Of a DNA stretch of 43,801 nucleotides, positions 6,632-43,801 are shown in pieces. Below the pieces are notes generated by a model that ran no database searches, had not been told where the DNA came from, and worked only from the letters and a program-made list of their open reading frames with translations. Position numbers and translations under genes: made by a program. Every line of letters starts with the position of its first letter. The stretch's first letter is position 1. Location: positions 1 to 43,801 of the IMG/VR virus record IMGVR_UViG_3300012926_000008; one strand, 5' to 3'. This DNA is from a virus.

Positions 6632-9157
6632 ATGACTGCTGGCCGCCTTTCCGTGTGGGAGATGGCCGCCGCGAAGCTGGAGGGAACGCTGCGACTCGCG
6701 AAAGACGCGGCGACACCCGGCGAACTGGCCGGGATTCTTGACCCGCAGACTGTGCAAACCCCCGCATTGGAGCTGATCGACCAGCGGCTAGTTGAGGCCA
6801 GTAAGCCGTACGGTCGGCTGATGGTGGCGCTGGCACCTCAGGAAGGTAAGGCTCTCGCCCTAGATACGCCTGTGGCTACCGTTGACGGCTGGTCCACGAT
6901 GGGCGCGCTTCGGGTCGGCGACCAAGTTTTCGACCGCAACGGCGACCCCTGCGCGGTCACGTGGCTGTCTCCGGTCTGGACTGACCGCCCCTGCTACACG
7001 GTGCGTGCCGGTGATGGTGAGGCCATCGTGGCAGATGCTGCACACGAGTGGATCGGGAAGGTCTCTCGCAACAACCCCCGTGAGCGAGTGCACGAGACAA
7101 CTGACCTAGCCATTCGGCGAGCCAAAAACTTCCAGATCACGGGTCCCGCTTCTCTTAATCTGCCCGACGTTGATGTACCGCTAGACCCCTACGTTCTTGG
7201 CGTCTGGCTAGGAGACGGTCACTCACTAGGCGCTCGCCTAACCAGCCATTTAGACGATGTGGCAGTGCGTGACCGACTTGCGGATGCTGGTTGGCCTGTC
7301 CGAAAAGATCAGTCCAAGTACGGCTACAGTTTCGCCGCTGCGCATGAACAGGGCCCCAAGGGCAGCCGCTTCCGTCAGGCCCTAAAGCAACTCGACTTGA
7401 TCCAAAATAAGCACATCCCCACTGCTTACTTGCGTGGATCAGAGAAGCAGAGGCTAGCCCTGCTTCAGGGCCTAGTGGACACCGATGGGTACGTCGACCC
7501 GCGAGGTCAAGTGGAGTTCTGCACCATGTCTCGCCGGATCGCTGAAGACGTCGTGCATCTCGTGTTCAGCCTTGGCGCTAAGGCCACTCTCCGAACGGGC
7601 CGGGCAACTCTCAACGGCAAAGATTGCGGCGAGAAGTACCGCGTGAGGTTCTTCCGCAAGGGCGCTGCGCACCTGCCCCGCAAGGCTGAGCGGTGTGCAG
7701 ACTCAAGTGTTGCCCGAGTCCGGTACGTCTGGGCTGAGGAATCCGCATCGGTCCCCGTCCGATGCATAGAGGTCGACAGCGCGGACCACACGTTCCTAGC
7801 TGGACGCACCCTACTGCCAACCCGAAACAGCACGCGTTGCGCGATGTACTTCCCGCTGTGGCTGCTGATGCGAAACCCGGATCTGCGGATCGCTATCGCC
7901 TCCTACGAGTCGACGATCGCCCGTCGCTGGGGTCGCGCCATCCGCAACCTGATCATCTCCCATCCGGAACTCGGGTTGAAGGTGAAAGGCGACACGGCTG
8001 CTGCGCATGAGTGGGCGTTGGACGGGAAGCATCCGAAAGACAGCAAGGGTTACGAGTCGCCGCATCGTGGTGGCCTGATCACTGCCGGGTTGGATGCTGC
8101 GATCACCGGGCGACCCGTAGATGTGTTGATCATCGATGACCCAGTGAAGGACCGTGCGCAAGCCGAGTCGCAGGTGTACCGGGAACGTGCATGGGACTGG
8201 TGGACCGACGCCGCGCGTCCCCGGTTCGGGCCGGGTGCGATCGTGGTGGTGGTGCAAACACGTTGGCATGAGGACGACTTGACGGGGCGTCTACAGGTCC
8301 GTGACGCTGACACGTGGACCGTGCTGAACGTCCCCACACAGGCAGACCATCGGCCCGAGAAAGGCGAGACAGACCCGTTAGGGCGCGAACCGGGCGAGTA
8401 CATGATCTCAGCTCGCGGTAACCGCATGCCGGACTGGCTCGCCCAGCAGAAATCCCCATCCACATGGGCGGCGCTGTATCAGGGGAAACCAGCGCCGGCT
8501 GAGGGCACGCTGCTGAAACGGCCGTACTGGGTGTACTACGACACCCCGAAAGCGATCCGGCAGCCGGACGGCACGATGCTCGCGCTCGGCGCCGATGAGG
8601 TGATCCAGTCGTGGGACTGCGCATTCAAAGACACGAAAGCCTCCGACTACGTGGTGTGCCAGGTGTGGGGACGTTGGGGTAACGACGCGTACCTGCTGGA
8701 TCAGGTGCATGAACGGTTGTCGTTCACAGGCACCGTGGAGGCAGTGAAACGCGTCTCGAAGGAGTGGCCGCAAACCCGGTTGAAGCTCGTGGAGGACAAG
8801 GCGAACGGTACCGCCGTAATCGACCATCTGCGGCGGGAGGTCACGGGGCTCGTGCCGGTGCAGGTGAGGGACGGCAAGTACGCCCGAGCGGTCGCGGTGT
8901 CGCCGTTCATCGAGTCGCGGCACGCGTTCATCCCGTCAGAGAATCTGTCCCGATGGGTGCAGGGCTTCGTCGATGAGTGCGCGACGTTCCCGAACAGCAC
9001 CAACGATGACCAGGTTGATGCCATGACGCAAGCTCTAGACCGACTACTCGGCCATCCGGTGAAGGTGCTGGTTCGTCGCCCTCCGCAGCAGTTGAATTTG
9101 CCGTCGGGGGTGGGTGCGGCGCTGGGTGGGCAGGTGCTAGGTAACCGATACCGCTAG
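6632..9157 (+). CDS. terL: Terminase large subunit with in-frame intein
   Basis: The precursor has 841 residues. Removing residues 74-399 leaves a 515-residue terminase, a normal length. The packaging ATPase has a split P-loop (APQEGK at 68-73, joined to STRC at 400-403 after splicing), Walker B VDVLIIDD (496-503) and the coupling motif VVVVQTRWHEDDL. The C-terminal RNase H-like nuclease shows D662 (SWDCAFKD), E721 (LVEDKANG) and D796 (NDDQVDAM). The protein pumps DNA into the prohead through the portal and cuts concatemers. It has its own leaderless promoter. No small terminase gene is obvious nearby. The protein is inactive unless the intein is excised. Confidence 0.95.
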   Translation: MTAGRLSVWEMAAAKLEGTLRLAKDAATPGELAGILDPQTVQTPALELIDQRLVEASKPYGRLMVALAPQEGKALALDTPVATVDGWSTMGALRVGDQVFDRNGDPCAVTWLSPVWTDRPCYTVRAGDGEAIVADAAHEWIGKVSRNNPRERVHETTDLAIRRAKNFQITGPASLNLPDVDVPLDPYVLGVWLGDGHSLGARLTSHLDDVAVRDRLADAGWPVRKDQSKYGYSFAAAHEQGPKGSRFRQALKQLDLIQNKHIPTAYLRGSEKQRLALLQGLVDTDGYVDPRGQVEFCTMSRRIAEDVVHLVFSLGAKATLRTGRATLNGKDCGEKYRVRFFRKGAAHLPRKAERCADSSVARVRYVWAEESASVPVRCIEVDSADHTFLAGRTLLPTRNSTRCAMYFPLWLLMRNPDLRIAIASYESTIARRWGRAIRNLIISHPELGLKVKGDTAAAHEWALDGKHPKDSKGYESPHRGGLITAGLDAAITGRPVDVLIIDDPVKDRAQAESQVYRERAWDWWTDAARPRFGPGAIVVVVQTRWHEDDLTGRLQVRDADTWTVLNVPTQADHRPEKGETDPLGREPGEYMISARGNRMPDWLAQQKSPSTWAALYQGKPAPAEGTLLKRPYWVYYDTPKAIRQPDGTMLALGADEVIQSWDCAFKDTKASDYVVCQVWGRWGNDAYLLDQVHERLSFTGTVEAVKRVSKEWPQTRLKLVEDKANGTAVIDHLRREVTGLVPVQVRDGKYARAVAVSPFIESRHAFIPSENLSRWVQGFVDECATFPNSTNDDQVDAMTQALDRLLGHPVKVLVRRPPQQLNLPSGVGAALGGQVLGNRYR
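6851..7828 (+). mobile_element. Intein with LAGLIDADG homing endonuclease, class 3 features
   Basis: Residues 74-399 of the terminase precursor (326 aa) interrupt the P-loop between Lys73 and Ser400. The intein starts with Ala74, not Cys or Ser, and ends PTRN with Asn399 before the Ser nucleophile. W140 after the block B His138 (AAHEW), C378 in block F (VRCIEVD) and T397 in block G form the W-C-T set that defines class 3 inteins, which splice through the block F Cys. VLGVWLGDG (188-196) and LLQGLVDTDG (277-286) are the two LAGLIDADG motifs of the endonuclease. Assignment is by motif only. Confidence 0.9.
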
Positions 9158-12385: not shown

Positions 12386-14173
12386 ATGGCCGCGCCCATC
12401 ATCGCCAGCAACGGCACGATCGCTGACACCACCACTACTACCGTCGCTGTGCCGGTGCCGTCAGGGGTGGCGTCCGGGTCGCTGATCGTCGCCTACATCT
12501 ACGCAGCATGGTTCAACGCCACCGTTCCGGATGCGACCGCGTTCACCGCGCCAACTGGTGCAGGTACATGGTTCATCAAGGACATCGTCACGCACGCTGT
12601 TAACGGTGCGAACAACCACGCGCTGATCATCGCCTACAAGTACGCCACCGGGTCGGACAGCGGCACCTACTCGTGGACGGTCAACACTGTCGGTGGCACG
12701 GCCCCGGCGTTCGCGTCAGGTGTCGCAGGACGGGTCACGGGCGGTGCGACCTCGGGTGACCCGTTCGCCGATGCGATCCAGAAAGGGTCCTCGGCTGACG
12801 GCACGTCCTCGGTCACGGTCGCCTCGTTCACCCCTGGCGGGGACAACACTCTGCTGGCCGCATACGCGATGGATGCGGATTCGCCGGCCACGGTCAGTCT
12901 CCCCGGTGGTTGGACGTCGCTGGCGTCCAGCAACGGTGCGGGCGCGTCAGGCAGTTCAGTCCTCGGTGATCTCACCCAGGGCACTGCCGCAGCGACCGGG
13001 ACGCTGACGTTCAGCAGCACGTCCTCGACGTTCAGCAAACTCGCCCTGGTCGCCACGTTCCGGGCGCCGTTCGTCCCGTTGCCACCATCGGGGGCGACCC
13101 GCCGTCGAATCCAACTACCGCGCCGTCGGCCCCGTCCCGCCGCAGCACCGATCAGGGTCGCGGGCGTCCTGCCGCCGCAGCCGGCTGCACGCCACCGAAC
13201 GTGGCTGCCGCCGCGCAGGCCCCGCACGGGGCAGCCCGTCCCGGCCCCGGTCGTGGTCGTCACAATCCAAGCGCTTCCACCACAGCCGGGACGCCGTCAG
13301 CCTCGACTGCTCACCGCGTCTCGGCATCGCGCCGCTCAAGTCGTCCCAGCGCAGGTTGTCGTCCAAACTGCCCAAGCATTGCCTGCGCAACCTGCCCGGC
13401 GCCCACGGCTATCACCGATCCAAGCGAAGCACCGGGCAGCGCAGCCAGTCCCGGCCGCTGCAGTCGTGGTCACGGTTCAGGCCCTGCCGCCGCAGCCGAC
13501 CCGCCGACCCGGACGGCCGCTACTCGCGCGTCGGCCACGCGCCACGCTGCCGCCACTTACAGTCACCGTCACACTTCCACCGCAGACCGTGCGGCGACGG
13601 GGGTGGGTGCCGGTCCGCAGACCGCGCCCGGGTCAGCCAGTGCCAGCGCAGGTTGCGGTTGTCACGGTTCAGCCGCTACCACCGCAGCCGACAAGACGCC
13701 CACCTCGGGTGGCGCTAGTACCTAGGCGCGGCGCTATCCAGCCTGTCCCGACCGTAACAGTTGTGGTCACAGTGCAAGCCCTACCGCCGCAGCCGACCCG
13801 CCGTTTGCTCCGGCCGCTGCTGGTTCGGCGTGCCCGTGTCACAGTGCCGCTCACGGTCACTGTCACATTACCCCCGCCTGCAGTTCGGCGCCGGGCGTGG
13901 CCGCTCACTGCTCGCCGTGCGCGTCAGGCTCAGCCGGTACCCGCGCAGGTCGTCATCGTCACCGCACAGTCGTTGCCACTCCAGCCGACAAGGCGCCTCC
14001 GGTGGCTGCCTCAGCGGCGACGTAACCAACTCGGTCAGCCCGTCCCACTGCCCGGGGTGACACCCCCTCCGGTCCGCGACGTGGACGTTGTCAACGTCGA
14101 GGTTGAGCCGGGGCGGCTGTCCGTGTCGGTAGAATCAGACCGAGGATCAGCCATGACGGAAGGTAACCCATGA
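12386..14173 (+). CDS. Putative virion adhesin with long Pro/Arg/Val repeat tail
   Basis: The product has 595 residues. Residues 1-228 are a Thr/Ala/Gly-rich beta domain of the kind seen in phage tail or head-fibre proteins. Residues about 231-565 are nine to ten imperfect repeats of 29-35 residues, each of the form LPPQPTRRPxRPLLxRR then QPVPAQVVVVTVQA. The tail alternates basic and hydrophobic strands. The last 30 residues are acidic. It ends in an ATGA overlap with the next gene. A role in binding the cell wall or DNA is possible; nothing here proves it. Confidence 0.7.
   Translation: MAAPIIASNGTIADTTTTTVAVPVPSGVASGSLIVAYIYAAWFNATVPDATAFTAPTGAGTWFIKDIVTHAVNGANNHALIIAYKYATGSDSGTYSWTVNTVGGTAPAFASGVAGRVTGGATSGDPFADAIQKGSSADGTSSVTVASFTPGGDNTLLAAYAMDADSPATVSLPGGWTSLASSNGAGASGSSVLGDLTQGTAAATGTLTFSSTSSTFSKLALVATFRAPFVPLPPSGATRRRIQLPRRRPRPAAAPIRVAGVLPPQPAARHRTWLPPRRPRTGQPVPAPVVVVTIQALPPQPGRRQPRLLTASRHRAAQVVPAQVVVQTAQALPAQPARRPRLSPIQAKHRAAQPVPAAAVVVTVQALPPQPTRRPGRPLLARRPRATLPPLTVTVTLPPQTVRRRGWVPVRRPRPGQPVPAQVAVVTVQPLPPQPTRRPPRVALVPRRGAIQPVPTVTVVVTVQALPPQPTRRLLRPLLVRRARVTVPLTVTVTLPPPAVRRRAWPLTARRARQAQPVPAQVVIVTAQSLPLQPTRRLRWLPQRRRNQLGQPVPLPGVTPPPVRDVDVVNVEVEPGRLSVSVESDRGSAMTEGNP
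13076..14085 (+). repeat. Protein-coding tandem repeats (9-10 units of about 87-105 bp)
   Basis: The repeat units share LPPQP, RR and VVVTVQA blocks. Long units of about 35 residues alternate with short ones of about 30. At DNA level they have diverged, so they are old or under protein-level selection. Confidence 0.75.
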
Positions 14174-14525: not shown

Positions 14526-14559
14526 GTCCCGTGACTGGTAGTCAAGTAGAATCACAGGC
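14526..14559 (+). promoter_or_regulatory. Operator copy 8 and leaderless promoter of the glycosylation cassette
   Basis: GTGACTGGTAGTCAA (14531-14545) is a palindrome with one end mismatch. TAGAAT (14547-14552) follows directly, and the GTG start codon (14560) is 7 bases later. This is the same layout as copy 4 before the terminase. No ribosome site is present. Confidence 0.7.
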
Positions 14560-15591
14560 GTGAAAGTCCACCTGATCCCGATGGACGACGGCGCATGCTC
14601 GTACTACAGGATTCGGGAGCCGGTGCGGGTCGCTAGGTCGATCGGGGTGGATGCGGAATGGTTCGCGGAGATCCAAGTTGTCGCCACCCATCACCCGTCC
14701 GGCGTGACGGAAGTGCACGAACTGCGGCATGACTGCGATGTGTTGGTGCTGCAACGGCCGTTGATGCAGGCCACGTACGCGATCGCGGTGCAGGCGCAGC
14801 GGCAGGGCATCAAAGTGGTGGTGGAACTGGATGACGACCTGCATGCGGTGCACCGCCGAAACACGGTTGAACCGTTCATTGATCCGAAGAAACAGCCGTG
14901 GCATAACCGGGATTGGGCCGCGAAAACCATTGCCATCGCTGACCTGCTCACTGTCAGCACTCCCGCGTTGACCCGGTACGGCCCTGAGAAGGCCGTGGTG
15001 GTCCGTAACCGGCTACCGGAAGCGTGTCTAGCGTTGCGTCCTGCGGTGTCGCCAGCGAGGCGCACAGTGGGCTGGACAGGCACCCTGGGTGTGCACCCGG
15101 CTGATCTGCAAGCAACTGAGGGTGGGTTGGCGAAGGTGCAGGCGCCGATCTCGATCGTGGGTGACGATAGGGGCGTCGCGGACGCGTTGAAGGTACCGCC
15201 TGGCCGGGTGTCGTTGGGGGCTACGTGGGACCCGGACATTCCCGCCTACTGGAAGTTGATCGCCGAAAACATGGGTGTCGGGATCGCACCTTTAGAGATG
15301 TCTGCGTTTAATGAGAGCAAAAGTGCGCTCAAGCCCACCGAGATGTGTGCTTTGGGTATTCCGTTCGTTGCGTCCCCCACGTCCGAATACAAGCGGATGG
15401 TGGCCGAATCCGGCGCCGGGCTGATCGCCCAGTCACGCGGCCAATGGGCTCGCATGGTGAACCGGCTCCTCAACGACGATGCGGAGTACGAGCGGATGCG
15501 GCAGCGAGGCGCCGAATGGGCAGCCGACCAGACGCTAGAGCGACACATCGGGTCATTCGTACACGCTTGGGAGAGAGCAGCAGATTCATGA
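14560..15591 (+). CDS. Glycosyltransferase, GT-B-like
   Basis: The product has 343 residues. The C-terminal half shows the usual nucleotide-sugar side of a GT4-like enzyme: VGWTGTLGVHPADL (about 167-180), an LSxVGDD-like strand (PISIVGDDRG), ESKSALKPTEMCALGIPFVA (about 249-268) and a closing helix. The enzyme would move a sugar from a nucleotide donor, probably onto a virion protein given the neighbours. It starts at GTG 14560 with no ribosome site and leads the coupled cassette. Confidence 0.8.
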   Translation: MKVHLIPMDDGACSYYRIREPVRVARSIGVDAEWFAEIQVVATHHPSGVTEVHELRHDCDVLVLQRPLMQATYAIAVQAQRQGIKVVVELDDDLHAVHRRNTVEPFIDPKKQPWHNRDWAAKTIAIADLLTVSTPALTRYGPEKAVVVRNRLPEACLALRPAVSPARRTVGWTGTLGVHPADLQATEGGLAKVQAPISIVGDDRGVADALKVPPGRVSLGATWDPDIPAYWKLIAENMGVGIAPLEMSAFNESKSALKPTEMCALGIPFVASPTSEYKRMVAESGAGLIAQSRGQWARMVNRLLNDDAEYERMRQRGAEWAADQTLERHIGSFVHAWERAADS

Positions 15592-16172
15592 TCCCCGGGG
15601 TAAGCGTGATCATTCCAACGGTGGCGCCGCGTGCGAACACGCTGCAGCGAGCCTTGGCCTCCGTCACTGCACAAACCCTGCAACCCGATACGGTGATCGT
15701 TCAAGAAGACACTGAACGGGAAGGAGCAGCGGCTACCCGGCAGCGGGCGCAAGACCGTGTGGTTACCGAATACACGTGTCCACTCGATGACGACGACGAG
15801 CTGCTACCGATGCACTTGGAACACCTGCTCGCCGAGGTTCAGCGCACCAATGCTGACCTAGTGTTTCCTTGGTACGAAGTGCGTGGCGGGGGCGACCCTA
15901 TGCCAGAAGCGTTCGGCCGTAACTGGGAGGACTACCTAACTGAATTCGGCCCGTACCAGTTCCCGGTCACGTTCCTCGCCCGCACTGAGGTGATCCGGGA
16001 CGCGGGGGGATGGCGCGGCATGGACGGTACTGTGGCCAGTCAAGAAGACTGGGTATTAATTCTGAGCCTCGTGTCAATGGGCGCAAAGATCGTGCACCTT
16101 CCGGAGCGCACTTGGCTTTGGATGCATCATGGTGCCAACTCCTCCGGACGTCCGGAGAATATCCGGTGGTGA
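15588..16172 (+). CDS. Glycosyltransferase family 2-like
   Basis: The product has 194 residues from the ATG in an ATGA overlap. The GT-A opening VSVIIPTVAPRANTLQRALA is followed by QTLQPDTVIVQED, then by CPLDDDDELLPMHLEHLLAE, where the Asp cluster would bind the metal and UDP- or dTDP-sugar. EDW near residue 152 fits the ED(W/Y) acceptor-side motif. It closely resembles the next gene and may have arisen by duplication. Confidence 0.85.
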   Translation: MIPGVSVIIPTVAPRANTLQRALASVTAQTLQPDTVIVQEDTEREGAAATRQRAQDRVVTEYTCPLDDDDELLPMHLEHLLAEVQRTNADLVFPWYEVRGGGDPMPEAFGRNWEDYLTEFGPYQFPVTFLARTEVIRDAGGWRGMDGTVASQEDWVLILSLVSMGAKIVHLPERTWLWMHHGANSSGRPENIRW

Positions 16173-16846
16173 CAGCACGCAGCGGTGACGTGACCATCGT
16201 CATCCCCACTATTCCGGGCCGCGAAGATCTACTAGCGCGAGCGGTGGGGTCAGTTAATGCTCAAACGGTTCCTGTCGCGGCAGTCATCATCCAGTTAGAT
16301 GCGGACCGTCGTGGTGCTGCCGCGACACGCAACGCGGCGTTGCCACGTGTGCAAACCCCTTTCCTGGGGTGGCTTGATGATGATGATGTTTTACTCCCGG
16401 ATCATGTACAGACACTAGTGGACGGGCAGAACGAGTCCGGCGCCGACCTCGTCTTCACCTACGCCGAGTTCGTCGGAGGGCGCGACCCGCTCGCCTGCTG
16501 CCAGGACGGTGTCCTCATAGCTGAGCCGATCAACGTTCCGTTCGGTCCGCAGCAACGCGACCATCTCGATTCGCGCCTAGGTCCGCTCTGCTCATGGTGC
16601 GGCGCTCATCGCGGCGGCTTCATCCCCATCACTCATATGGTCCGCACTGATGCCATACGTGCTACTAGCGGGTTCCCGGAACCTAACTCGATGCCGGAAG
16701 TACCAGTGTCCGGTGACTGCGAGGATTACCTAGCCCTGTTGAAGCTGTTGGATGCTGGCGCCGAGTTTCATCACGTCGTCGGCAAACGAACATGGCAGTA
16801 TTTCATGCACGGAGCAAACACGGCGGGCAGAGGAATAGCTTCATGA
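16169..16846 (+). CDS. Glycosyltransferase family 2-like, paralogue of the previous gene
   Basis: The GTG at 16169 lies in a GTGA overlap. VTIVIPTIPGREDLLARAVG, then AAATRNAAL and FLGWLDDDDVLLPDH, mirror the neighbouring enzyme block for block. CEDYLALLKLLDAGAEFHHV corresponds to its EDW segment. A Cys-containing insert (LGPLCSWCGAHRGG) is specific to this copy. The duplication suggests two sugars are added in sequence; the donors are unknown. Confidence 0.85.
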   Translation: MTARSGDVTIVIPTIPGREDLLARAVGSVNAQTVPVAAVIIQLDADRRGAAATRNAALPRVQTPFLGWLDDDDVLLPDHVQTLVDGQNESGADLVFTYAEFVGGRDPLACCQDGVLIAEPINVPFGPQQRDHLDSRLGPLCSWCGAHRGGFIPITHMVRTDAIRATSGFPEPNSMPEVPVSGDCEDYLALLKLLDAGAEFHHVVGKRTWQYFMHGANTAGRGIAS

Positions 16847-17502
16847 CACCACCTAGGTTCGCGGTCGTCCTCACGCACAACCGTCCAGCGCTGCTGTGGG
16901 AATGTGTTGAGTCGGTGTTCCCGCAAGTAGACCACGTGGTCATCGTTGATAATGCTTCTGATCCGCCCGTGTCTGATGATGAGTGGCCAGCGAACGTCAC
17001 TGTTGTTCATGACCTGTTGCAGCCCCCGAACCTTGCCTACCTGTGGAACAGTCAACTAGACAGCATTCGCGACTCGCGGCCCGGCGCTGAATGGGATGTA
17101 GCGCTTCTGTGCGATGACGTGTTCATGCCGTCGGATTGGTTCGACCGGGTGTCCGGGGCTCTACGGGCACACTCAACAGCGGCAGCGGCGTCTACCCACT
17201 CGTACGGCCCGATCGTGGAGCCGTACCTGTTGACGCAACTTTCCAACGGCACCGACAGGATGTGCCCGTGGTGTTTCATGCTCCCCGGTGAACGGGGTCT
17301 ACGAGCCAATGAGGCTTTGCATTGGTGGTGGACCGACACTCACATCGACATGCTGGCTAGGCAGAGCGGCGGAACCCTGATTGTGCCCGGAGCGATCGCC
17401 ACCAACGAGCGCATCGGCGAGTACACCAACAGCAAGCCGGAACTCGCTGAGCAGGCTGGACGCGACGGCGACACGTTCCAATCGATATGGGGATTTCGGT
17501 GA
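16843..17502 (+). CDS. Glycosyltransferase family 2-like
   Basis: The product has 219 residues, starting at the ATG in an ATGA overlap. FAVVLTHNRPALLWECVESV and VDHVVIVDNASDPP are the classic GT2 opening with the N-A-S loop. LCDDVFMPSDWF carries the DxD-like pair. The C-terminus (WWTDTHIDMLARQSGG) would close the active site. Its position inside the cassette fits a stepwise glycan assembly. Confidence 0.8.
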   Translation: MTPPRFAVVLTHNRPALLWECVESVFPQVDHVVIVDNASDPPVSDDEWPANVTVVHDLLQPPNLAYLWNSQLDSIRDSRPGAEWDVALLCDDVFMPSDWFDRVSGALRAHSTAAAASTHSYGPIVEPYLLTQLSNGTDRMCPWCFMLPGERGLRANEALHWWWTDTHIDMLARQSGGTLIVPGAIATNERIGEYTNSKPELAEQAGRDGDTFQSIWGFR

Positions 17503-18119
17503 CAGTTGGCTACGGCGTGTGTGTCGGTTCGTGGGACAAGTTCGTGGCGAACGTCGCCCCCCGCACCACTGGCCGGCCGATGATGGCGCTATCTGGCCAA
17601 TCGGGCATCGTTCACGCCTACAACACCATCGTTGCCGCTGCGTTCGCGAGGCACGACCTGGATGCGCTGATTCTGCTGCATGACGACCTGGAACTGACTG
17701 ACCCTGATGCGGAAGCGAAACTGCTCGCACCGCTAGTCGACCCCGATGTTGGCTTAGTGGGTGTCGCTGGCGGTGGTGGCGATTCCATCTACTGGTGGAA
17801 CCACAATCCCGTAGGTCATCAACTCACTGACGTGATGAACATCGACTTCGGGCAGCGGGAAGGCGACGTCACCCTTATCGAGGGCAGCGTCATGGTGTTG
17901 TCGCCGTGGCTACTAGCCAACTTGCGGTTCGACCCCCGGTTCACCGGCTACCACGGCTACGACGAGATCGGCATGCAGGTTCGGGCAGCCGGGAAGCGTG
18001 TCGTCGTCGTGGACGTGGACACGCACCACCACAATCCTATGGGGTACGCGTCGGAAGAGTCAGCGGAGATGTGCCGTCTGGCTGCGCAGTTGTATCAAGA
18101 GAAATGGGGTTTGGGATGA
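17499..18119 (+). CDS. Glycosyltransferase-like protein, GT-A fold
   Basis: The GTG at 17499 lies in a GTGA overlap and gives 206 residues. LDALILLHDDLELTDPDAEA contains the Asp pair of GT-A enzymes, and VTLIEGSVMVLSPWLL with FDPRFTGYHGYDEIGMQVRA forms the acceptor and catalytic region. HHHNPMGY near the end could bind the metal. It resembles small bacterial 'glycosyltransferase-like' domains acting on surface sugars. Confidence 0.75.
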   Translation: MTVGYGVCVGSWDKFVANVAPRTTGRPMMALSGQSGIVHAYNTIVAAAFARHDLDALILLHDDLELTDPDAEAKLLAPLVDPDVGLVGVAGGGGDSIYWWNHNPVGHQLTDVMNIDFGQREGDVTLIEGSVMVLSPWLLANLRFDPRFTGYHGYDEIGMQVRAAGKRVVVVDVDTHHHNPMGYASEESAEMCRLAAQLYQEKWGLG

Positions 18120-18760
18120 CGGTGCCGTTCACGGTGCGGCCCTACCCGTTGGACGAGTACCCGTTCACGGAGTTAGTGGCTGAATCACTCGGAGTGGATG
18201 ACCTGTCTAACCTGTCAGCGGATTTGCCGCGCCGCACTTGGCGGACTGATCAGCAAAGCCCGTGGCACGCCTCGTTTTACAGTGGGTTCGAAGCGTGGCG
18301 CGGACTGTTCGCTGGGTTCGTCCGAGACGAGATCGGTCCGCTCGTGAATGAACCTTTCTACTGGCAGGCGGTGCCAACGTTCCGGGTGCATCTCCCCGGT
18401 AATGTCGCGGTCGGCGAATTCCACACTGACGCCCAATACCACCATCCGGTCGATGAGCGGTCGTTCTGGTTACCACTTACCCCCGCCTACGACACGTGCA
18501 GTGTGTGGGTGGAAGCCGACGACGGCGTGCTACACGCCCCCGATGTTGATCCCGGGCATTTAGTGGAGTTCTCGGCGGCGACACGACGCCACGGCAACAA
18601 AATCAACGAGACGGGTCACACTCGGGTCAGTTTCGATTTTCGTGTGCTGCCGGTGCGGCTTCTCCCCCCAGAAGAGGGAGCGCCTACTGAGCACACGAAG
18701 CTGCGGTTCGTCCCGGGCGGCTACTACGCGGCAGACGCGATGGAAGGTGCGGGGTCATGA
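18116..18760 (+). CDS. StrG-like 2-oxoglutarate/Fe(II) oxygenase family protein
   Basis: The product has 214 residues. VAVGEFHTDAQYHHPVDERS places H103 and D105; RRHGNKINETGHTRVSFDFR places H159 and R170. Together these form the HxD...H...R iron and 2-oxoglutarate set. The sequence resembles StrG from streptomycin gene clusters, a protein of uncertain exact role. Here it may oxidise a sugar or a modified residue. The clustering with glycosyltransferases supports a decoration role; the substrate is not known. Confidence 0.75.
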   Translation: MTVPFTVRPYPLDEYPFTELVAESLGVDDLSNLSADLPRRTWRTDQQSPWHASFYSGFEAWRGLFAGFVRDEIGPLVNEPFYWQAVPTFRVHLPGNVAVGEFHTDAQYHHPVDERSFWLPLTPAYDTCSVWVEADDGVLHAPDVDPGHLVEFSAATRRHGNKINETGHTRVSFDFRVLPVRLLPPEEGAPTEHTKLRFVPGGYYAADAMEGAGS

Positions 18761-19965
18761 GACGTGAACAGTGCGGGTCCTGCGGGTACGACGACCTAGA
18801 GCTATTCCTTGATTTGGGGATGTCCCCGGTAGCGGACGCCTACACGGCATCGGCTGACGAACTGTCAGAAACGCATCCGTTGCAGCTCGCGGTGTGCAAC
18901 GGATGCCGGCTCGTGCAACTGCTGGACGTGGTCGACCACGACGTGCTGTTCGGCACCGGCTATTCGTTCTACTCGTCAGCGTCGCCCCCGCTGTCCGAGT
19001 ACCACGCCTCCTACGCCGGCCAAGTCCTGACTCGGCATGGCGAGTTGGCAAAACGGTTCACGGTGGAGATCGGCTGCAACGACGGTGACCTGCTCCGGCA
19101 CTTCGCCGCCGCTAAATGCCCCGTGTTGGGTGTCGATCCGGCAGGTGGTCCCGTCGACCATGCCCGTAAGCGTGGCCTCGACGTGGTCAACGTCCCGTTC
19201 GGGAAACTGATCGCCGAGCAACTTCTCAATGAGCATGGCCCGGCTGGTGTGATCATCGCGAACCACGTCTTGGCTCATGTCGAATCAGTCTCTGACGTCT
19301 TGGACGGCATCCAACATTTGCTGGCTGCGGACGGTGTCGCCTACATCGAGGTGCAGTACCTGCCGGATCTGTTGGTGAACAACGCGTTCGATCTGGTGTA
19401 TCACGAGCACCGGAACTTCTTCTCCCTGACCAGTTTAGAAAGCGCGGCTCAACGGTGGGGCCTGCATGTCGCGGACGCTGAACTGACCGATAGGCAGGGC
19501 GGTTCACTCAGGGTGGTGTTGGCGCGGTCCGTGTCGCCGTCTGAGCGGGTGGAACGTATCCGGGCATCAGAGGCGTGGCTACGGGGGATGGGGGCTTACC
19601 GTGGCTTCCAAGGCCGTGCGGACCGTATCCGTGTCCGGCTGCTCGACGCGGTGGATGAGGCCACGTACAACGGTCTGCTGGTCGGTTACGGCGCCCCCGC
19701 GAAAGCGACGACGCTGCTGAACTTCTGCGGCCTCACCGCAGACCACGTCGACTACGTGGTCGATTCCACTCCCGCGAAACAGGGGCGGTTCATCCCGGGC
19801 ACCGGGATACCGATCAAACCGCCTACGCCGAAGGTACTTGACCCGGCAGGCACGGTGCTGGTTCTGGCATGGAACTACGCCCCACAGATCATGCGCAACA
19901 ACCTAGCGTTCACGATGCGTGGCGGGCGTTGGCTGATACCCATTCCGAGTCCGGTGCTTCTATGA
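18757..19965 (+). CDS. Sugar C-methyltransferase-like SAM enzyme
   Basis: The product has 402 residues in three parts. An N-terminal zinc module has C6, C9, C47 and C50. A SAM-binding Rossmann domain follows with VEIGCNDGDLLRHF (about 103-116). The C-terminal domain includes GYGAPAKATTLLNFCG and ends LVLAWNYAPQI. This architecture is that of TylCIII/NovU-type enzymes that methylate carbon on dTDP-sugars in antibiotic pathways. It probably methylates a sugar used by the neighbouring transferases. Confidence 0.85.
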   Translation: MRREQCGSCGYDDLELFLDLGMSPVADAYTASADELSETHPLQLAVCNGCRLVQLLDVVDHDVLFGTGYSFYSSASPPLSEYHASYAGQVLTRHGELAKRFTVEIGCNDGDLLRHFAAAKCPVLGVDPAGGPVDHARKRGLDVVNVPFGKLIAEQLLNEHGPAGVIIANHVLAHVESVSDVLDGIQHLLAADGVAYIEVQYLPDLLVNNAFDLVYHEHRNFFSLTSLESAAQRWGLHVADAELTDRQGGSLRVVLARSVSPSERVERIRASEAWLRGMGAYRGFQGRADRIRVRLLDAVDEATYNGLLVGYGAPAKATTLLNFCGLTADHVDYVVDSTPAKQGRFIPGTGIPIKPPTPKVLDPAGTVLVLAWNYAPQIMRNNLAFTMRGGRWLIPIPSPVLL

Positions 19966-20489
19966 GGCTCAATCTCGGATGCGGCGACAGGTATGCGGAA
20001 GCTTGGACGAACGTCGATTTCGGTTCCCCGCACCGCAAGGATCAAGAGGTGGACTTGACGGGGCCGTTGCCGTGGGAGCCGGGAAGCGTTACCCATGCCT
20101 ACCTGGGGCACGTCCTAGAGCACCTGACGGTCGATCAATGTACAGATCTGCTGACCCGGTTGTTGCCATGCATGGACCCAACGGGCGCGTTGATGATGAT
20201 CGTCGGACCGGACGTCCCCCTAGCGGAACAGATGATCGCCGACGGCACATTCGACTTCACCTACCACAGTCTGGACTCGCTCAGGTACGGCGCCGGGCGC
20301 TGGTCCGGGGACGTACATCTATGGGAATGCTCAGGTGCAGCCGTAGCTCAGTTGTGCCGTGACGCAGGCTGGCCGATCGTGACCGATATTGGGATCAGAT
20401 CGGTTGATCAGACGTGGCCCGTGGCCGACAGAACCCCCCAGTGGCAGCTCGCGGTCCGCGCCTACACGGGGACCCCGACGTCTTGGTAG
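19962..20489 (+). CDS. Class I SAM-dependent methyltransferase
   Basis: The product has 175 residues from the ATG in an ATGA overlap. MRLNLGCGDRYAEAWTNVDF is the SAM-binding loop and acidic strand, and AYLGHVLEHL is the family's motif at the end of strand 4. Small enzymes of this kind often O-methylate sugars or proteins. It is the last gene of the coupled cassette. Confidence 0.85.
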   Translation: MRLNLGCGDRYAEAWTNVDFGSPHRKDQEVDLTGPLPWEPGSVTHAYLGHVLEHLTVDQCTDLLTRLLPCMDPTGALMMIVGPDVPLAEQMIADGTFDFTYHSLDSLRYGAGRWSGDVHLWECSGAAVAQLCRDAGWPIVTDIGIRSVDQTWPVADRTPQWQLAVRAYTGTPTSW

Positions 20490-36568: not shown

Positions 36569-37237
36569 TTAGCTGGTGAACCCGTTCAGGATCGTCGGTA
36601 GCGCGGACACCCGGTCCGACTGGTAAGGCTTGTCCGTCGGGATCTGCAACACCGGGGTGCCACCACCGGGGAAGAAGTTCGCGTTACCGAAGCAGTACCC
36701 TTCGAACACGGTCGCGATGAACCCGTTCTCAATCACCCGGTCACCCGTCAACGTGAGCGTGCACAGCGGGAACGCATGCACCCAGTACGGGTTCGTCGAC
36801 GCCGGCTTGCCGTTCACGTACGCGCCGGACCACACTTCCAGGCCGACACCGTTACCGACACCCGACGTGGTCAACTGCCCCGCCTGCAACGACTGGTAGC
36901 CGGTCACCGGGGACGAACCCGGGTTGGTGAACGTCGTACCACCACCGAGGAGGACGATCAGCTCAGGTTCCGGGTTGCAGATCTCCAGGTGCACGTTGTA
37001 GTACTTCAGAATGTCCGGGGTTTTCAAGATCTGGCACAGCGACCCGTCAGCGGCCTTGTTCGCGATGTCCTCGCCGGGTTCGTTCTCCGGGGTGAACGTG
37101 ACGTTCAGGAACTGCCCCGACACCCACACACTGCCGGACGTGCCGGTGAGCGGCGCGCCGGACACGGACAGGGACGACACGCGCATCGCATACCCGCGAA
37201 CCGAAGTCGCGTGGTCAGTCAACGCAGGAGCTGCCAT
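36569..37237 (-). CDS. Probable major tail protein
   Basis: The product has 222 residues. FLNVTFTPENEPGEDIANKA and GLEVWSGAYVNGKPASTNPY, then WVHAFPLCTLTLTGDRVIEN and FIATVFEGYCFGN, are strand-rich blocks with Gly turns as in tail-tube subunits. It lies between capsid-like genes and tail connectors. Another structural role cannot be excluded, since gene order here is unusual. Confidence 0.6.
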   Translation of the reverse strand: MAAPALTDHATSVRGYAMRVSSLSVSGAPLTGTSGSVWVSGQFLNVTFTPENEPGEDIANKAADGSLCQILKTPDILKYYNVHLEICNPEPELIVLLGGGTTFTNPGSSPVTGYQSLQAGQLTTSGVGNGVGLEVWSGAYVNGKPASTNPYWVHAFPLCTLTLTGDRVIENGFIATVFEGYCFGNANFFPGGGTPVLQIPTDKPYQSDRVSALPTILNGFTS

Positions 37238-38064: not shown

Positions 38065-39813
38065 TCAGTTGCCGGTCTTGCCGAGCAGCGGAATGTTAAA
38101 GGCGCTCGCGACCTTCAACGACTCCACGCCGACCATGGCGAGAGCCTCGAAGTTCTCCGTGAACTGGATGTAGTCGTTCGTGCCGACCAGCGTCGAGTCC
38201 CGGACCACACCGATGTCCAGCGTGCCGCCGTCGAGGAACAGGAACGTTCCCTCAGCGAACAGGTACCACGTGACCGTGGTCGGGTACAGGAGCAGCGCAC
38301 CCGCAGCCTGCGCACCGACGAGAGCAGAGTCATCGATGTGCCATGCGACGTTCACGTTGCGGGCCGACAGCCAACCCTCAATCGTGCCGTCACCCTCACC
38401 GAGGACACTCTCGCTCGTCGGGGTCTTCGACATCGCGATGTCGTCGCGGATCGCGTCCCGCACCCATGCCGGGGCGATGACCCGGAGCGGGGCATCGGCG
38501 GCCATGCGGTGCCGGGTCCGGTACGCCACAGCGCCCTGAGCGACCTGCGGCAGCCAGTCGCGGGTGATACCCAGCGGAGTGCCGGGGTTCGCCACCGTGA
38601 CAGCCGTAGACAGGGTCGTCATCGCCGAGAGCAGGGTCTGCTCCGCGAGGCGGGCCTGAGCGATCAGCCCAAGATCCGTGTTGCGGGCCACCATCTCCGG
38701 GTAGGCGCGGTTCATGAAGTTACCGAACTGCATCTCCAGCGTCACCGCCGAGATCGTCGCGGTCTGCTCGGCGCCGCACGCGACGATCAGCTTGTTCTTC
38801 GTCGCACCACCCGGGGTCGTGTCAGTCGCGGCGGTCCACACACCGACCGAGCCAGTGACACCGGAAAGCTTCGGTGGGGTGATGAACCGGATACCGCCAC
38901 GCTGCGCCCGGAAGCCGGGAAGGGCGCCCCGCACCGGGCGGTCCGTCACGCCGATACCGAACACGTCGTAGCGGGGCTCCAGCGGGGCACAGTACCCACC
39001 GGACGCGACGAGGGCCTTCACGTGACTGGCGTCGCGGCCGATGACCTCAGCGATCTTCTCCGCGTTGCCTTCCATGTCCCCGGCCATCAACATCCGGTCG
39101 TCGGACGGGTCAGGCGACTTCACCGACGCGACGAGCACATGCTCACCGTCGCCGCGTGCGCCACGCAGGGCCGATACCTTGTCGGTTAGGGCCTGGATGA
39201 ACTGGGCACGGTCCGTGAACTGCATGCCCGCGCTCACATGCGGCACGTCCGCGCCGGCCACAACAACGTTTGACGCCGCGACAGGGGTTGCCAGCGGCTG
39301 ACGGTCCTCGGGAACACTGGGAGTGTCCACCTTGGCCTCCTCCTCGTTCTCGGCCGTCACGGTCGTGTCGGCAGTCTCAGGGTCGTTCTCGGGGGATGGT
39401 GCGGGTTCCTCGCCAGCAGGGGCCGTATCAGCCTCCACGGGCTGCTCACCGGCCGTCTCAGGCTCGGCGGGGGCATCGGCAGGCGGGTCGGTCACGTCAG
39501 CCACAGGGACCTCCGTAGTCGCGGCGGCCGCGATGTCCATCGCGGCGTCCGGGTTCGCGCCCGGCTCCAGCGACGCATCGTCATCACCGTCAGCGTCCGG
39601 GTCAGACACGTCGATGCCACGGGACTGCGCCTCAGCCTGAACCTGATCCAAGGCGTCAGCAGCGGACGACATGCCGTCAAGGTCATCGCCAGTGTCGGCG
39701 GCCTCGAACGCGGCAACGATCTCAGTTTCCAGCCCGGCCAGTTCATCGTTCGACAACTGGGCAATGTTGGCCAGTTTGTCCTGGTAGCCGGTGCCGTCGG
39801 TTGGTGCCGTCAT
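38065..39813 (-). CDS. Major capsid protein with acidic N-terminal scaffold region
   Basis: The product has 582 residues. Residues 1-190 are acidic and Ala/Glu/Pro-rich with helices (LANIAQLSNDELAGLETEIV), suited to act as a built-in scaffold that the protease removes. From about residue 200, YDVFGIGVTDRPVRGALPGF, GGIRFITPPKLSGVTGSVGV, LPQVAQGAVAYRTRHRMAAD and ALMYP-like GALLLYPTTVTWYLFAEG fit an HK97-fold capsid. It follows the protease region. The ribosome site is buried in a hairpin (see 39821-39849). Confidence 0.85.
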   Translation of the reverse strand: MTAPTDGTGYQDKLANIAQLSNDELAGLETEIVAAFEAADTGDDLDGMSSAADALDQVQAEAQSRGIDVSDPDADGDDDASLEPGANPDAAMDIAAAATTEVPVADVTDPPADAPAEPETAGEQPVEADTAPAGEEPAPSPENDPETADTTVTAENEEEAKVDTPSVPEDRQPLATPVAASNVVVAGADVPHVSAGMQFTDRAQFIQALTDKVSALRGARGDGEHVLVASVKSPDPSDDRMLMAGDMEGNAEKIAEVIGRDASHVKALVASGGYCAPLEPRYDVFGIGVTDRPVRGALPGFRAQRGGIRFITPPKLSGVTGSVGVWTAATDTTPGGATKNKLIVACGAEQTATISAVTLEMQFGNFMNRAYPEMVARNTDLGLIAQARLAEQTLLSAMTTLSTAVTVANPGTPLGITRDWLPQVAQGAVAYRTRHRMAADAPLRVIAPAWVRDAIRDDIAMSKTPTSESVLGEGDGTIEGWLSARNVNVAWHIDDSALVGAQAAGALLLYPTTVTWYLFAEGTFLFLDGGTLDIGVVRDSTLVGTNDYIQFTENFEALAMVGVESLKVASAFNIPLLGKTGN

Positions 39814-41297: not shown

Positions 41298-42059
41298 TCA
41301 CCGGCCGATACGGGCCCGCAACGCTCGCTTCTCCAACTGGTGCTCCACCCTGGCGTCGATCGCCGCCGTGAGCGCGGCAGGGTCGGTGAAGAACGCGTCC
41401 AGCATGCGCACCCCGAACATGTCCTGAGCACCCGCTGCGACCAGCGCCGTGACAGCACCGGATGCGACCAGGCATTCCGCGCGGGGTACGGGGAACCCGG
41501 GTGCGTTCACTTGGCACACGGCGATCAGCTCTAGCGCGCCGTTGATGACCCGCCAGTCACCGCTAGGTGCCGAGGCGCGCAACGCGCGGATCTGTTCCGG
41601 GGTGGCATCCGACCGCAGCGACCCCGCGACCCAGATACCGTGCCTGTCCTCCCCAGCGTTCACGTCGGCGATAGCGGAACGGGTGTCGTCGTAATGCTGC
41701 ACGGCGCGCCCAGCATCAGCACTGAGAGGTGCGTGGCCGCCGGCTAGGGTCAACTGCCCGACCGGCTGGTCGGAGCCGTTAGCGGTCGCCACAACCCCGG
41801 TGCGGAAGTAGCTGTAGTTTGACCTCGACTTGGGCGGCCGGACATTCCCGGGCAAACCAGTATGTGTAGAGTTCCATGAGGCGATATGCCCGAACACTTG
41901 ACCCGCTGGCGTCACAGTTATGGGTGTCGGCCGTAGCATCTCCGGCGGCTGAAACCACTCCGCAGGTGGCTGCACCGGGCCAGCGTCAGCCGTCAACGCC
42001 GCGATCAACGGCTCATCCAAACGCAGCGGGTCCGCCTCGCGGAAGATTGAGATCGTCAT
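41298..42059 (-). CDS. Capsid maturation protease
   Basis: The product has 253 residues. PAGQVFGHIASWNSTHTGLP (about 51-70) and later SNYSYFRTGVVATANG, then VGQLTLAGGHAPLSADAG, contain the His and Ser blocks found in actinophage prohead proteases of the S78-like kind. It lies between the MuF-like gene and the capsid gene, the usual place. It would remove the capsid N-terminal region once the prohead is built. It has a helical C-terminus (ALTAAIDARVEHQLEKRALR). Confidence 0.75.
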   Translation of the reverse strand: MTISIFREADPLRLDEPLIAALTADAGPVQPPAEWFQPPEMLRPTPITVTPAGQVFGHIASWNSTHTGLPGNVRPPKSRSNYSYFRTGVVATANGSDQPVGQLTLAGGHAPLSADAGRAVQHYDDTRSAIADVNAGEDRHGIWVAGSLRSDATPEQIRALRASAPSGDWRVINGALELIAVCQVNAPGFPVPRAECLVASGAVTALVAAGAQDMFGVRMLDAFFTDPAALTAAIDARVEHQLEKRALRARIGR

Positions 42060-42080
42060 GATGCCTCCGATGGGGAGTCG

Positions 42081-42097
42081 TCCGGTACACTTGAACG
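42081..42097 (+). promoter_or_regulatory. Candidate leaderless promoter of the HNH gene
   Basis: TACACT (42086-42091) ends 6 bases before the ATG at 42098; no ribosome site lies in between. The same hexamer with similar spacing precedes the gene at 4958. No -35 is evident. Confidence 0.45.
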
Positions 42098-42619
42098 ATG
42101 CCCGAATGCATCCATAGCACCGTAGGTGATTGTAGTTCTAGCCGTCTCCGGCGGGGGATGTGCGAGCGGCATTACCGTCGAGTTGCCGCAACAGGAACAC
42201 CCGTAAAAAGAGCAACCGGATGGGGAACGCTCGTCGTCAAGCAAGAGGACGGATGCTGGATCTGGCAGGGGCCACCTAGTAACGCGGGATACGGCAGCTA
42301 CAACGTCCACAACGACCGGACCTACATCGCTCACCGATACGTCTACGAACTGCACAAGGGACCGGTGCCTGACGGTTTGGATTTGGACCATCTCTGCATG
42401 GTCAAGATGTGCGTCAATCCGGACCATCTTGAGCCGGTGACCCGTAAAGAGAACCACCGCCGCCGTATCGCTGCTCGGACTCGCTGCAAACATGGTCATG
42501 ACTTGAGCCTGCCCGGTGCTTTCATCCCGGGGACTAGTCAATGCCATCCGTGTCGACTGGCTGTGTACCGCAGGGTTCGGGAACGGCGAAAGAGGGAATC
42601 CCAAGCAACTGGTGGCTAG
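42098..42619 (+). CDS. HNH homing endonuclease, mobile insertion
   Basis: The product has 173 residues. YIAHRYVYELHKGPVPDGLD then LDHLCMVKMCVNPDHLEPVT is an HNH_3 nuclease core with the two Cys that structure the finger and HLEPVT at the C-terminal helix. A Cys-rich N-terminus (CIHSTVGDCSSSRLRRGMC) and a C-terminal CKHGHDL plus CHPC finger help DNA binding. It lies on the opposite strand exactly between the MuF-like and protease genes, ending 2 bases from the MuF stop. This is typical of free-standing homing endonucleases. Confidence 0.9.
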   Translation: MPECIHSTVGDCSSSRLRRGMCERHYRRVAATGTPVKRATGWGTLVVKQEDGCWIWQGPPSNAGYGSYNVHNDRTYIAHRYVYELHKGPVPDGLDLDHLCMVKMCVNPDHLEPVTRKENHRRRIAARTRCKHGHDLSLPGAFIPGTSQCHPCRLAVYRRVRERRKRESQATGG

Positions 42620-42621
42620 GT

Positions 42622-43801
42622 TCATTTGCCACCCCGGTCTAACTTCGCATGCTGCGCTGGCCACAGACCCGTGGCGATTTTATGAAGCTCATTGCATTGG
42701 CCCTTGACGGCGTACTCATTATGCACGTACTTGGATAGCAAACGGACACATCGTGACCAGTCACCACTTTCACCCCACCGCACGCGAGCGGAGCCTTTCC
42801 CGTGAGTCCAATACTCGCGAAGTTGGTCAGGTGTCCGTGTATGCGCGGCAACGTCAGCCACCACTGGCTCAGCGCTAGCCTTGACCGGCGCCTTCACCGG
42901 AGGTGCCTTAGGCGGCGCGGGGGTACCGGCAGGCGGGAACTGCTTAGCCAACTGTGCGTCGATAGCAGCAATCTGCGCCTTCAACTGGGCGTCCAGTTTC
43001 GCTTTACTAGCAGCGTTCGCTTTCGTTGCTGCCGTATGCCGCGCTGTTTCCTTCGCGGTTGCTTCCGCACGGCGGGTTTGCCAGGCGAGACGCCGTTGCG
43101 CTTCCGCTACCCGCATCGCCTTTCGATCCGCCGGGCTAGCAGCCGCGTACTGTCGCATGTAGTCGATACGGTGCTGCTGCTCCCCGAGCAGCGACGTGGA
43201 TTGCGCGTCCAGGAACTTCTGATGCTGCGCCGTTTCCGTCGCCGATGCAGTTTTCTCTTTCGCCGCTACCGCGTTACGCAACGCTGTCTTCTGCACTTGC
43301 GCGGCCTTAGTCGCAGCCGCCTTCTTAGCGGCAGCGGCTTTCTTCGCGGCAGCCGAGCCACCCCCGCCGCCTGCACCTTTCGGGGTTTTGTACGGCTTCG
43401 CTATCACCGTTTTCGCTGTTGGCGCGGCATGCGGTGCGGTCGTTTTCCGGTTCGCCTCTAACGCGTTCGCCTGACTACCACCGCCGGCAGTCCATTTCCC
43501 GGTCGGGTCGCGTGATTCTGACGGGTTGAACGCCGCTGTGACCGGGCCGAGGGGGATGTTGCGTTGGTCGGCGCCGTGCCACACCCCGACCTGATCGAAG
43601 TTGAGTGGGGTGCCGCCGAGACCGTCTGTTGGTACCGGGTCAGCCCCGTACTGCCTGGTCACGTGCGGGGTGAACGAGTGGTCGGACTGCTGGGTAACAC
43701 CGTTACCGGCGAGATGGTCGATGAGTGACTGCCGTGCCTCCGGTAGGCCCGGCACATCGGCGAGCGCCACCTGTACCGGGTTGTCGGCGTTGTCGCTTCC
43801 C
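42622..43801 (-). CDS. MuF/portal-associated protein C-terminus with 2H-phosphoesterase-like motif, partial
   Basis: The frame is open to the window edge, so the N-terminus is missing; 393 residues are visible. HSFTPHVTRQYG near the start is an HxT motif of the 2H phosphoesterase family. A long Ala/Lys helical region follows (AAAKKAAAAKKAAATKAAQV). The C-terminal SGDWSRCVRLLSKYVHNEYA, VKGQCNELHKIATGLWPAQH resembles the end of actinophage MuF or protease fusion proteins. It probably takes part in prohead assembly. It is the first visible gene of the structural operon, which continues beyond the window. Confidence 0.7.
   Translation of the reverse strand, partial: GSDNADNPVQVALADVPGLPEARQSLIDHLAGNGVTQQSDHSFTPHVTRQYGADPVPTDGLGGTPLNFDQVGVWHGADQRNIPLGPVTAAFNPSESRDPTGKWTAGGGSQANALEANRKTTAPHAAPTAKTVIAKPYKTPKGAGGGGGSAAAKKAAAAKKAAATKAAQVQKTALRNAVAAKEKTASATETAQHQKFLDAQSTSLLGEQQHRIDYMRQYAAASPADRKAMRVAEAQRRLAWQTRRAEATAKETARHTAATKANAASKAKLDAQLKAQIAAIDAQLAKQFPPAGTPAPPKAPPVKAPVKASAEPVVADVAAHTRTPDQLREYWTHGKGSARVRWGESGDWSRCVRLLSKYVHNEYAVKGQCNELHKIATGLWPAQHAKLDRGGK

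Follow-up and report, generated by a model that had tools for sequence, protein, structure and literature searches.

What use would a phage make of eight coupled genes for sugar enzymes, and which molecule would carry the product? The question is raised by a cassette at positions 14560–20489 of the IMG/VR virus record IMGVR_UViG_3300012926_000008, whose whole stretch of 43,801 nucleotides was analysed (hereafter, the window). We observed eight plus-strand open frames, all overlapping their neighbours, that encode five glycosyltransferases (gtA–gtE), a 2-oxoglutarate (2OG)-Fe(II) oxygenase (ox), a sugar C-3-methyltransferase of the TcaB9/D-mycarose family (cMT) and a small methyltransferase (sMT). 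Their family matches agree with the preliminary description, which had named this set a coupled operon for glycosylation and sugar modification. Our answer is that these enzymes, which are soluble, probably attach to virion proteins a glycan that contains a C-methylated deoxysugar, whose precursor would come from the host. The genes are listed below, with E-values after the family names.

14560..15591, + strand: gtA, GT-B-type (group 1) glycosyltransferase, 343 aa; phrog_7162 3.1e-33; PF00534 2.4e-5, below cut-off
15588..16172, + strand: gtB, GT-A family-2 glycosyltransferase, 194 aa; PF00535 8e-12; phrog_14775 4.1e-40
16166 or 16169..16846, + strand: gtC, paralogue of gtB (36% identity); PF00535 1.2e-8; phrog_14775 2.2e-26
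16843..17502, + strand: gtD, GT-A-like glycosyltransferase, 219 aa; PF00535 1.1e-4, below the Pfam cut-off
17499..18119, + strand: gtE, GT-A glycosyltransferase, 206 aa; PF13712 3.5e-8
18116..18760, + strand: ox, 2OG/Fe(II) oxygenase, 214 aa; H103-x-D105...H159...R170
18757..19965, + strand: cMT, nucleoside diphosphate (NDP)-sugar C-3-methyltransferase, 402 aa, with a zinc-binding N-terminal domain; TcaB9 and D-mycarose enzyme matches
19962..20489, + strand: sMT, small S-adenosylmethionine methyltransferase, 175 aa; phrog_6636 methyltransferase 9.9e-7

The overlap is exactly 4 bases at six of the seven junctions. The 4-base overlaps described earlier therefore hold everywhere except possibly at gtB/gtC, where the overlap is 4 or 7 bases depending on which of two GTGs is taken as the start.

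The C-methyltransferase and its partner enzymes

The identity of the cMT as an antibiotic-type C-methyltransferase, proposed earlier, was confirmed by its domains, its matches and its residues. Three domains follow one another, all above cut-off: PF08421 (residues 6–65), PF13489 (103–238) and PF08484 (247–397; 1.1e-39). In a single-sequence search the C-METHYLTRANSFERASE (cMT) matched TcaB9 at 7.1e-74 and D-mycarose 3-C-methyltransferase at 1.8e-67, and a profile reached 7.7e-95; the alignment is near full-length. We aligned the window protein with those of 20 of the 47 close cMT loci described below and observed that Y69, H174, Y215, E217 and H218 are invariant in all 21 sequences. Four of them, Tyr69, Tyr215, Glu217 and His218, occupy the positions that were altered in the TcaB9 entries 4e31, 4e2x, 4e2y and 4e2z. 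The identities of these residues were taken from the PDB sequences, and we take the residues changed in the mutant entries to be the catalytic ones; the Tyr/Tyr/Glu/His set is thus kept. From this likeness we infer that the cMT methylates C-3 of an NDP-4-keto-6-deoxysugar. It differs from TcaB9 and the D-mycarose enzyme in being phage-encoded beside glycosyltransferases rather than in an antibiotic cluster, and in that no dehydratase or ketoreductase was found in its window.

Where would the activated sugar come from? The preliminary description saw no genes for sugar-nucleotide synthesis, and our search of the window for the epimerase/dehydratase family PF01370 found none. A host-made precursor is plausible: in the family to which our only genome-contig match belongs (see below), 81 genomes were sampled, and a dTDP-glucose 4,6-dehydratase scored above the curated cut-off in 67 of them, while a GDP-mannose dehydratase was present in 12. 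Either host enzyme could feed the window cMT.

In the relatives, an NDP-sugar dehydratase-type gene often adjoins cMT. In PDB profile searches its nearest match was GDP-mannose 4,6-dehydratase (4.6e-65, against 8.1e-21 for a 4-ketoreductase). On the TIGR01472 model, L029, L058, L027 and L077 reached 116–170 bits, below the cut-off of 415; the dehydratase at an ox relative locus, L016, passes the GDP-mannose dehydratase cut-off. At the position that we take to be the catalytic Glu of GDP-mannose dehydratase, Ala stands in all 12 aligned neighbours (11 viral proteins and L077), and Glu is kept in L060, L016 and L083. The Ala-type neighbour may have turned into a ketoreductase or epimerase working after the cMT. 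Two open frames, of 715 aa in L038 and 754 aa in L059, looked like cMT–dehydratase fusions, but on reading, their N-terminal parts proved to be another frame over cMT, and the fusions were dismissed.

The ox protein has the residues of a 2OG-Fe(II) enzyme. The HxD...H iron site (H103, D105 and H159) and the 2OG-binding R170 do not vary across an alignment of 14 sequences, made up of the window's protein, L019 and 12 of the 15 ox loci (L010, L012 and L016 were left out). It gave no Pfam match, its profile matched no PDB sequence even at E 1, and no match was found among 50,697 phage records. The preliminary description had called the oxygenase StrG-like; by sequence, the nearest named family is NCBIfam TIGR04324, the sporadic carbohydrate cluster 2OG-Fe(II) oxygenases (4.8e-9). 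The iron-site region matches and both are set among carbohydrate genes, but at 36.1 bits against a cut-off of 150 ox is a distant branch rather than a member. Its structural model (pLDDT 88.4) is a jelly-roll, closest to PtlH (Z 13.7, root-mean-square deviation (rmsd) 3.3, 181 residues aligned), and other PhyH-like oxygenases match too. Relatives of ox were found in 15 viral contigs, several of them not far from GDP-mannose dehydratase-type genes. Around one such relative, in a different uncultured phage (L005, 6435–14448), reading of the translations gave about ten glycosyltransferase- or methyltransferase-like open frames directly after a gene of 679 aa, which looks like another large glycan cassette.

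Conserved residues were likewise seen in the transferases: D67, D69 and D70 of gtB in 54 of 54 aligned sequences, D91–D92 of gtD in 36 of 36, and the NLGCG near the N-terminus of sMT in 17 of 17. The AlphaFold2 model of gtE (pLDDT 91.4) has a GT-A fold, nearest to majastridin 2qgi (Z 19.2, rmsd 2.9, 195 residues aligned); its alignment comprised the window and 15 gtE loci, and the 50,697 phage records held no match to it. A PDB sequence search with gtA gave nothing at 0.01, and a single-sequence search of viral contigs confirmed no gtA relative; such relatives came later, through the cMT neighbourhoods. The PHROG methyltransferase listed above is the only family match of sMT. No membrane-like stretch was seen in any of the eight proteins, the highest 19-aa hydropathy being 1.45; this argues for enzymes that work in the cytoplasm, with proteins, DNA or sugar nucleotides as their substrates.

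Relatives in uncultured viruses and their place among virion genes

A search of IMG/VR viral contigs with the cMT gave 55 loci, 47 at 49–68% identity (L019–L065) and eight at 31–33% (L066–L073); the contigs are presumably of soil origin, to judge by their metagenome numbers. Among the 50,697 phage records, the cMT had only eight matches, the best at 31% and none an actinobacteriophage by name, and a nucleotide search of these records with the cassette DNA found no match. In the 47 close loci we counted gtE in 39, gtB/C in 38, gtD in 35, gtA in 20, sMT in 16 and ox in one; since several contigs end within the cassette, these counts are lower bounds. A GMD-type gene occurs in 25 of the 47, and L023 and L025, outside this count, carry a dTDP-glucose-dehydratase-like gene directly before cMT. 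The nearest locus in content is L019, where gtE-ox-sMT-cMT and two gtB/C genes stand just ahead of a capsid gene of the window's family. Three records that share the window's capsid protein (L074–L076) showed no cMT in 16–39 kb; they are fragments ending near tail genes.

These loci point to virion glycosylation, which the preliminary description had also favoured, and gene placement in the 47 relatives makes it the best-backed target. A virion gene was present in 42 of them (the exceptions being L022, L023, L025, L060 and L065), and all 106 such hits lie on the strand of cMT. It lay within 2 kb in 40 loci, within 1 kb in 30, and on both flanks in nine. Clusters were labelled (maturation protease, capsid, head-tail adaptor, tail terminator, tape measure and tail protein) by the PHROG matches of their representatives; the two 'minor tail' clusters owe that name to their position, and the best match of one of these is 'phosphodiesterase'. 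Three layouts predominate: the cassette between the major capsid gene and a head-tail adaptor gene, the cassette after tail genes, and the cassette directly ahead of a capsid gene that belongs to the same family as the window's.

On a quick tree of cMT, loci placed by head genes interleave with those placed by tail genes: in total, 13 changes of placement were needed against a least possible 5 and a mean of 26.1 after shuffling, with at least three changes in the head group forced by starred branches. This interleaving indicates that the module moved more than once, and it appears to keep landing beside virion genes.

It is known already that phage enzymes glycosylate the virion in a few mycobacteriophages. 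What is new here is that such a set includes an antibiotic-type C-methyltransferase and a 2OG oxygenase, that it is widespread in uncultured viruses and that it has settled repeatedly beside morphogenesis genes. In the open-licence papers that were searched we found no phage C-methyltransferase cassette of this type. A bolder picture, which we rate a little below even, is that of a mobile module in uncultured soil actinobacteriophages that would make branched C-methylated deoxysugars, whose chemistry is otherwise familiar from antibiotics, dress capsids or tails with them, hop among sites in virion-assembly operons and reshuffle its glycosyltransferases and finishing enzymes; the outcome would be a fast-changing surface, a phage counterpart of the variable O-antigens of bacteria. 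If these ideas are right, virion glycosylation would be common in uncultured actinobacteriophages, with a richer sugar chemistry and wired into morphogenesis operons. New sugar-modifying enzymes with proteins as substrates would also be available from the cassettes, and there would be a testable reason for surface variation, namely the choice of a receptor, a shield against enzymes of the host or the soil, or evasion of recognition.

Which molecule would carry the glycan

We computed gene content, catalytic residues, co-occurrence and adjacency to virion genes; on these we built a mechanism whose substrate, C-3 position, step order, late timing, protein target and benefit (masking, adsorption or protection) are all inferred. 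The host would supply an activated 4-keto-6-deoxysugar, either dTDP-4-keto-6-deoxyglucose of the rhamnose pathway or its GDP equivalent, and the phage cMT would put a methyl branch on C-3. Subsequently, ox and sMT may modify the sugar, or the glycan once it is complete, by oxidation and methylation. The five glycosyltransferases would assemble a short glycan stepwise on new virion proteins while these are in the cytoplasm, either ahead of assembly or in its course. The operon would act late, and the glycan would coat the particle. Virion proteins are favoured as the target because the cassette is placed by virion genes.

Several points weigh against this proposal. The glycan is a prediction from the genes. 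The placement counts are raw ones, tailed-phage genomes being rich in virion genes, and three of the 40 near loci (L039, L043 and L050) rest on the 'minor tail' label inferred from position. In the window itself, the cassette forms an operon of its own, outside that of the tail genes and convergent with it, the major tail protein being encoded at 36569–37237; no 4-ketoreductase was found in the window. In the organism tallies, gtA, gtB, gtD and gtE had no Mycobacterium phage match at 1e-5, these tallies including no direct comparison with Che8 gp110, Corndog gp38 or the Myrna enzyme; the mycobacteriophage precedent therefore holds by analogy only. Finally, a thymidylate-synthase (TS)-like gene, a possible source of a modified base, was found in 4 of 17 records.

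The last point bears on the main rival, DNA hypermodification, in which a hydroxymethylated base would be glycosylated as a defence against restriction and the methyltransferases and ox would finish the sugar. We consider this explanation unlikely. Several kinds of phage glycosyltransferase act on modified DNA bases. The TS-like genes of the four records (L050, L055, L061 and L062) are divergent members of PF00303, and the three whose proteins were read (L087, L088 and L089) keep a Cys and have Asp after PY. Ordinary thymidylate synthases have Asn there, and Asp at this place is the sign of a dCMP hydroxymethylase, for which these three are candidates. For the field of phage DNA glycosylation we refer to Pyle 2024, as cited in a passage of PMC12619734. 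On the other side, the remaining 13 of the 17 records, the window included, gave no PF00303 match (all may be fragments), the TS-like gene of L050 lies far from the cassette (4.9 kb vs about 67–85 kb), and it is with virion genes that the cassette tracks. The three TS-like genes that were read, at L087 237–1073, L088 338–1243 and L089 333–1283, belong to cassette-bearing phages, some of which may modify DNA.

A change of the host surface, by which the cell-envelope glycan would be altered to block superinfection or release progeny, seems to us more improbable still. It would suit the nearest named family of ox, a carbohydrate-cluster oxygenase family (TIGR04324), and the cMT–dehydratase pair in a prophage-like region of an actinobacterial chromosome. 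It accords poorly with eight proteins that have no membrane-like stretch and with a cassette in which no flippase or polyprenyl-phosphate glycosyltransferase was seen, and placement within virion operons fits late work on the virion better. That the genes serve a small-molecule or nucleotide-sugar pathway, yielding a sugar-modified metabolite or signal unrelated to the virion, is very improbable: enzymes of the cMT family are known chiefly from antibiotic sugars, but neither the cassette nor the labelled neighbours in the 47 relatives include an aglycone-making gene, most neighbouring frames being unlabelled.

Within virion glycosylation, a particular target had been suggested earlier, the repeat protein encoded just upstream. 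Nothing singles out this protein (12386–14173), whose repeat half is Pro/Arg-rich with 1% Ser, and we do not retain it. It has 595 aa, the first 230 residues being Ser/Thr-rich and the repeat half consisting of 21% Pro, 17% Arg and 15% Val; no Pfam or PHROG match was obtained.

Known systems, host and regulation

According to passages in PMC12363180, PMC11600133, PMC11256854 and PMC12619734, virion proteins of the mycobacteriophages Che8, Corndog and Myrna are glycosylated by phage enzymes, the decorated proteins being capsid and tail-tube proteins (Freeman et al. 2023, via the citing papers). Passages in PMC12363180, PMC11600133 and PMC11256854 describe tandem glycosyltransferases beside an O-methyltransferase in cluster O phages. 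The window operon resembles these systems, as far as those passages describe them, in its phage-encoded glycosyltransferases and, as in cluster O, a methyltransferase gene beside them; it differs in having both a C-methyltransferase and an oxygenase, neither of which is mentioned in the passages on Che8, Corndog and Myrna.

Closer in sequence are the Streptomyces phages Zuko and KimJongPhill (Zukovirus), which have homologues of gtA (26%), gtB (43%) and gtD (35–38%, to annotated glycosyltransferases). KimJongPhill also has one of sMT (gp5, 37%). A sugar-nucleotide gene, methyltransferases and the terminase lie near their glycosylation genes. In contrast to the window, these genes are split between both genome ends, and cMT, ox and gtE have no match there. 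The Arthrobacter phages Mimi, Racecar, Talia1610 and Atuin share a related major capsid protein and carry relatives of gtA (38%, to Mimi gp173) and gtB (39–40%) a few genes apart, but no match to cMT, ox or sMT; in Mimi, the gtA and gtB relatives are surrounded by tRNA and RNA-ligase genes and lie a long way from the capsid gene.

The mycobacteriophage frame used in the preliminary description is too narrow. Lsr2 is an actinobacterial trait; the window has an Lsr2-like gene, and its capsid protein, encoded at 38065–39813, has relatives in Mycobacterium, Gordonia, Microbacterium, Arthrobacter and Streptomyces phages. From these two observations we concluded that the host is actinobacterial, and we speak of an actinobacteriophage. 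The single genome-contig match was a metagenome-assembled genome titled Micromonosporaceae, in which one contig carries cMT, a GMD-type gene and a head-tail gene. Among 300 genomes of that family, a close cMT was present in two, this one and a chromosome of 8.67 Mb having prophage-like genes with cMT and a dehydratase. Two identical stretches of at least 11.9 kb, 48 kb apart on one chromosome and both with cMT and a dehydratase (L083 and L084; G120:C1 6000–25900 and 46000–65900), may be a duplicated prophage or an assembly artefact.

Two features upstream of gtA concern its expression.

14532..14544, strand not assigned: copy of a 13-bp palindromic operator, directly upstream of gtA
14547..14552, + strand: TAGAAT, a -10-like hexamer, 7 nt before the gtA GTG

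The cassette had been placed behind one operator promoter. The operator part stands, with the palindrome copy in front of gtA; for the promoter part, a consensus scan gave no sigma-70 site before gtA. The 13-bp palindrome (TGACTASTAGTCA-like) occurs at nine window sites (801, 3451, 5821, 6605, 9162, 10120, 11600, 14532 and 21020), and a related 14-base pattern has 21 matches on both strands of the window against 2.06 expected. It looks like an operator for one repressor governing many phage genes. The layout at the terminase gene (6632) is the same as at gtA, a palindrome copy followed by TATGAT 6 nt ahead of the ATG, and this common operator points to a shared switch for the cassette and the packaging gene. 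The spacing of the hexamer at gtA suggests a leaderless start; leaderless starts are an actinobacterial habit. The GC content of the cassette genes (59.6–62.3%, against 61.5–67.1% for seven other window genes) does not set them apart, so recent import is unsupported.

The window is a fragment: it has no terminal repeat, and of a portal model no more than the C-terminal third is matched, in the region 41298–43770. The final gene starts 31 bases from the window end; taken together, the partial match and this late start indicate that the record was probably cut there. The palindrome copies are mostly intergenic, and in several of them the TTGAC half could act as a -35 box. The terminase gene (6632–9157) encodes 841 aa, of which the N-terminal part matches a primase model and separate stretches match other terminase models.

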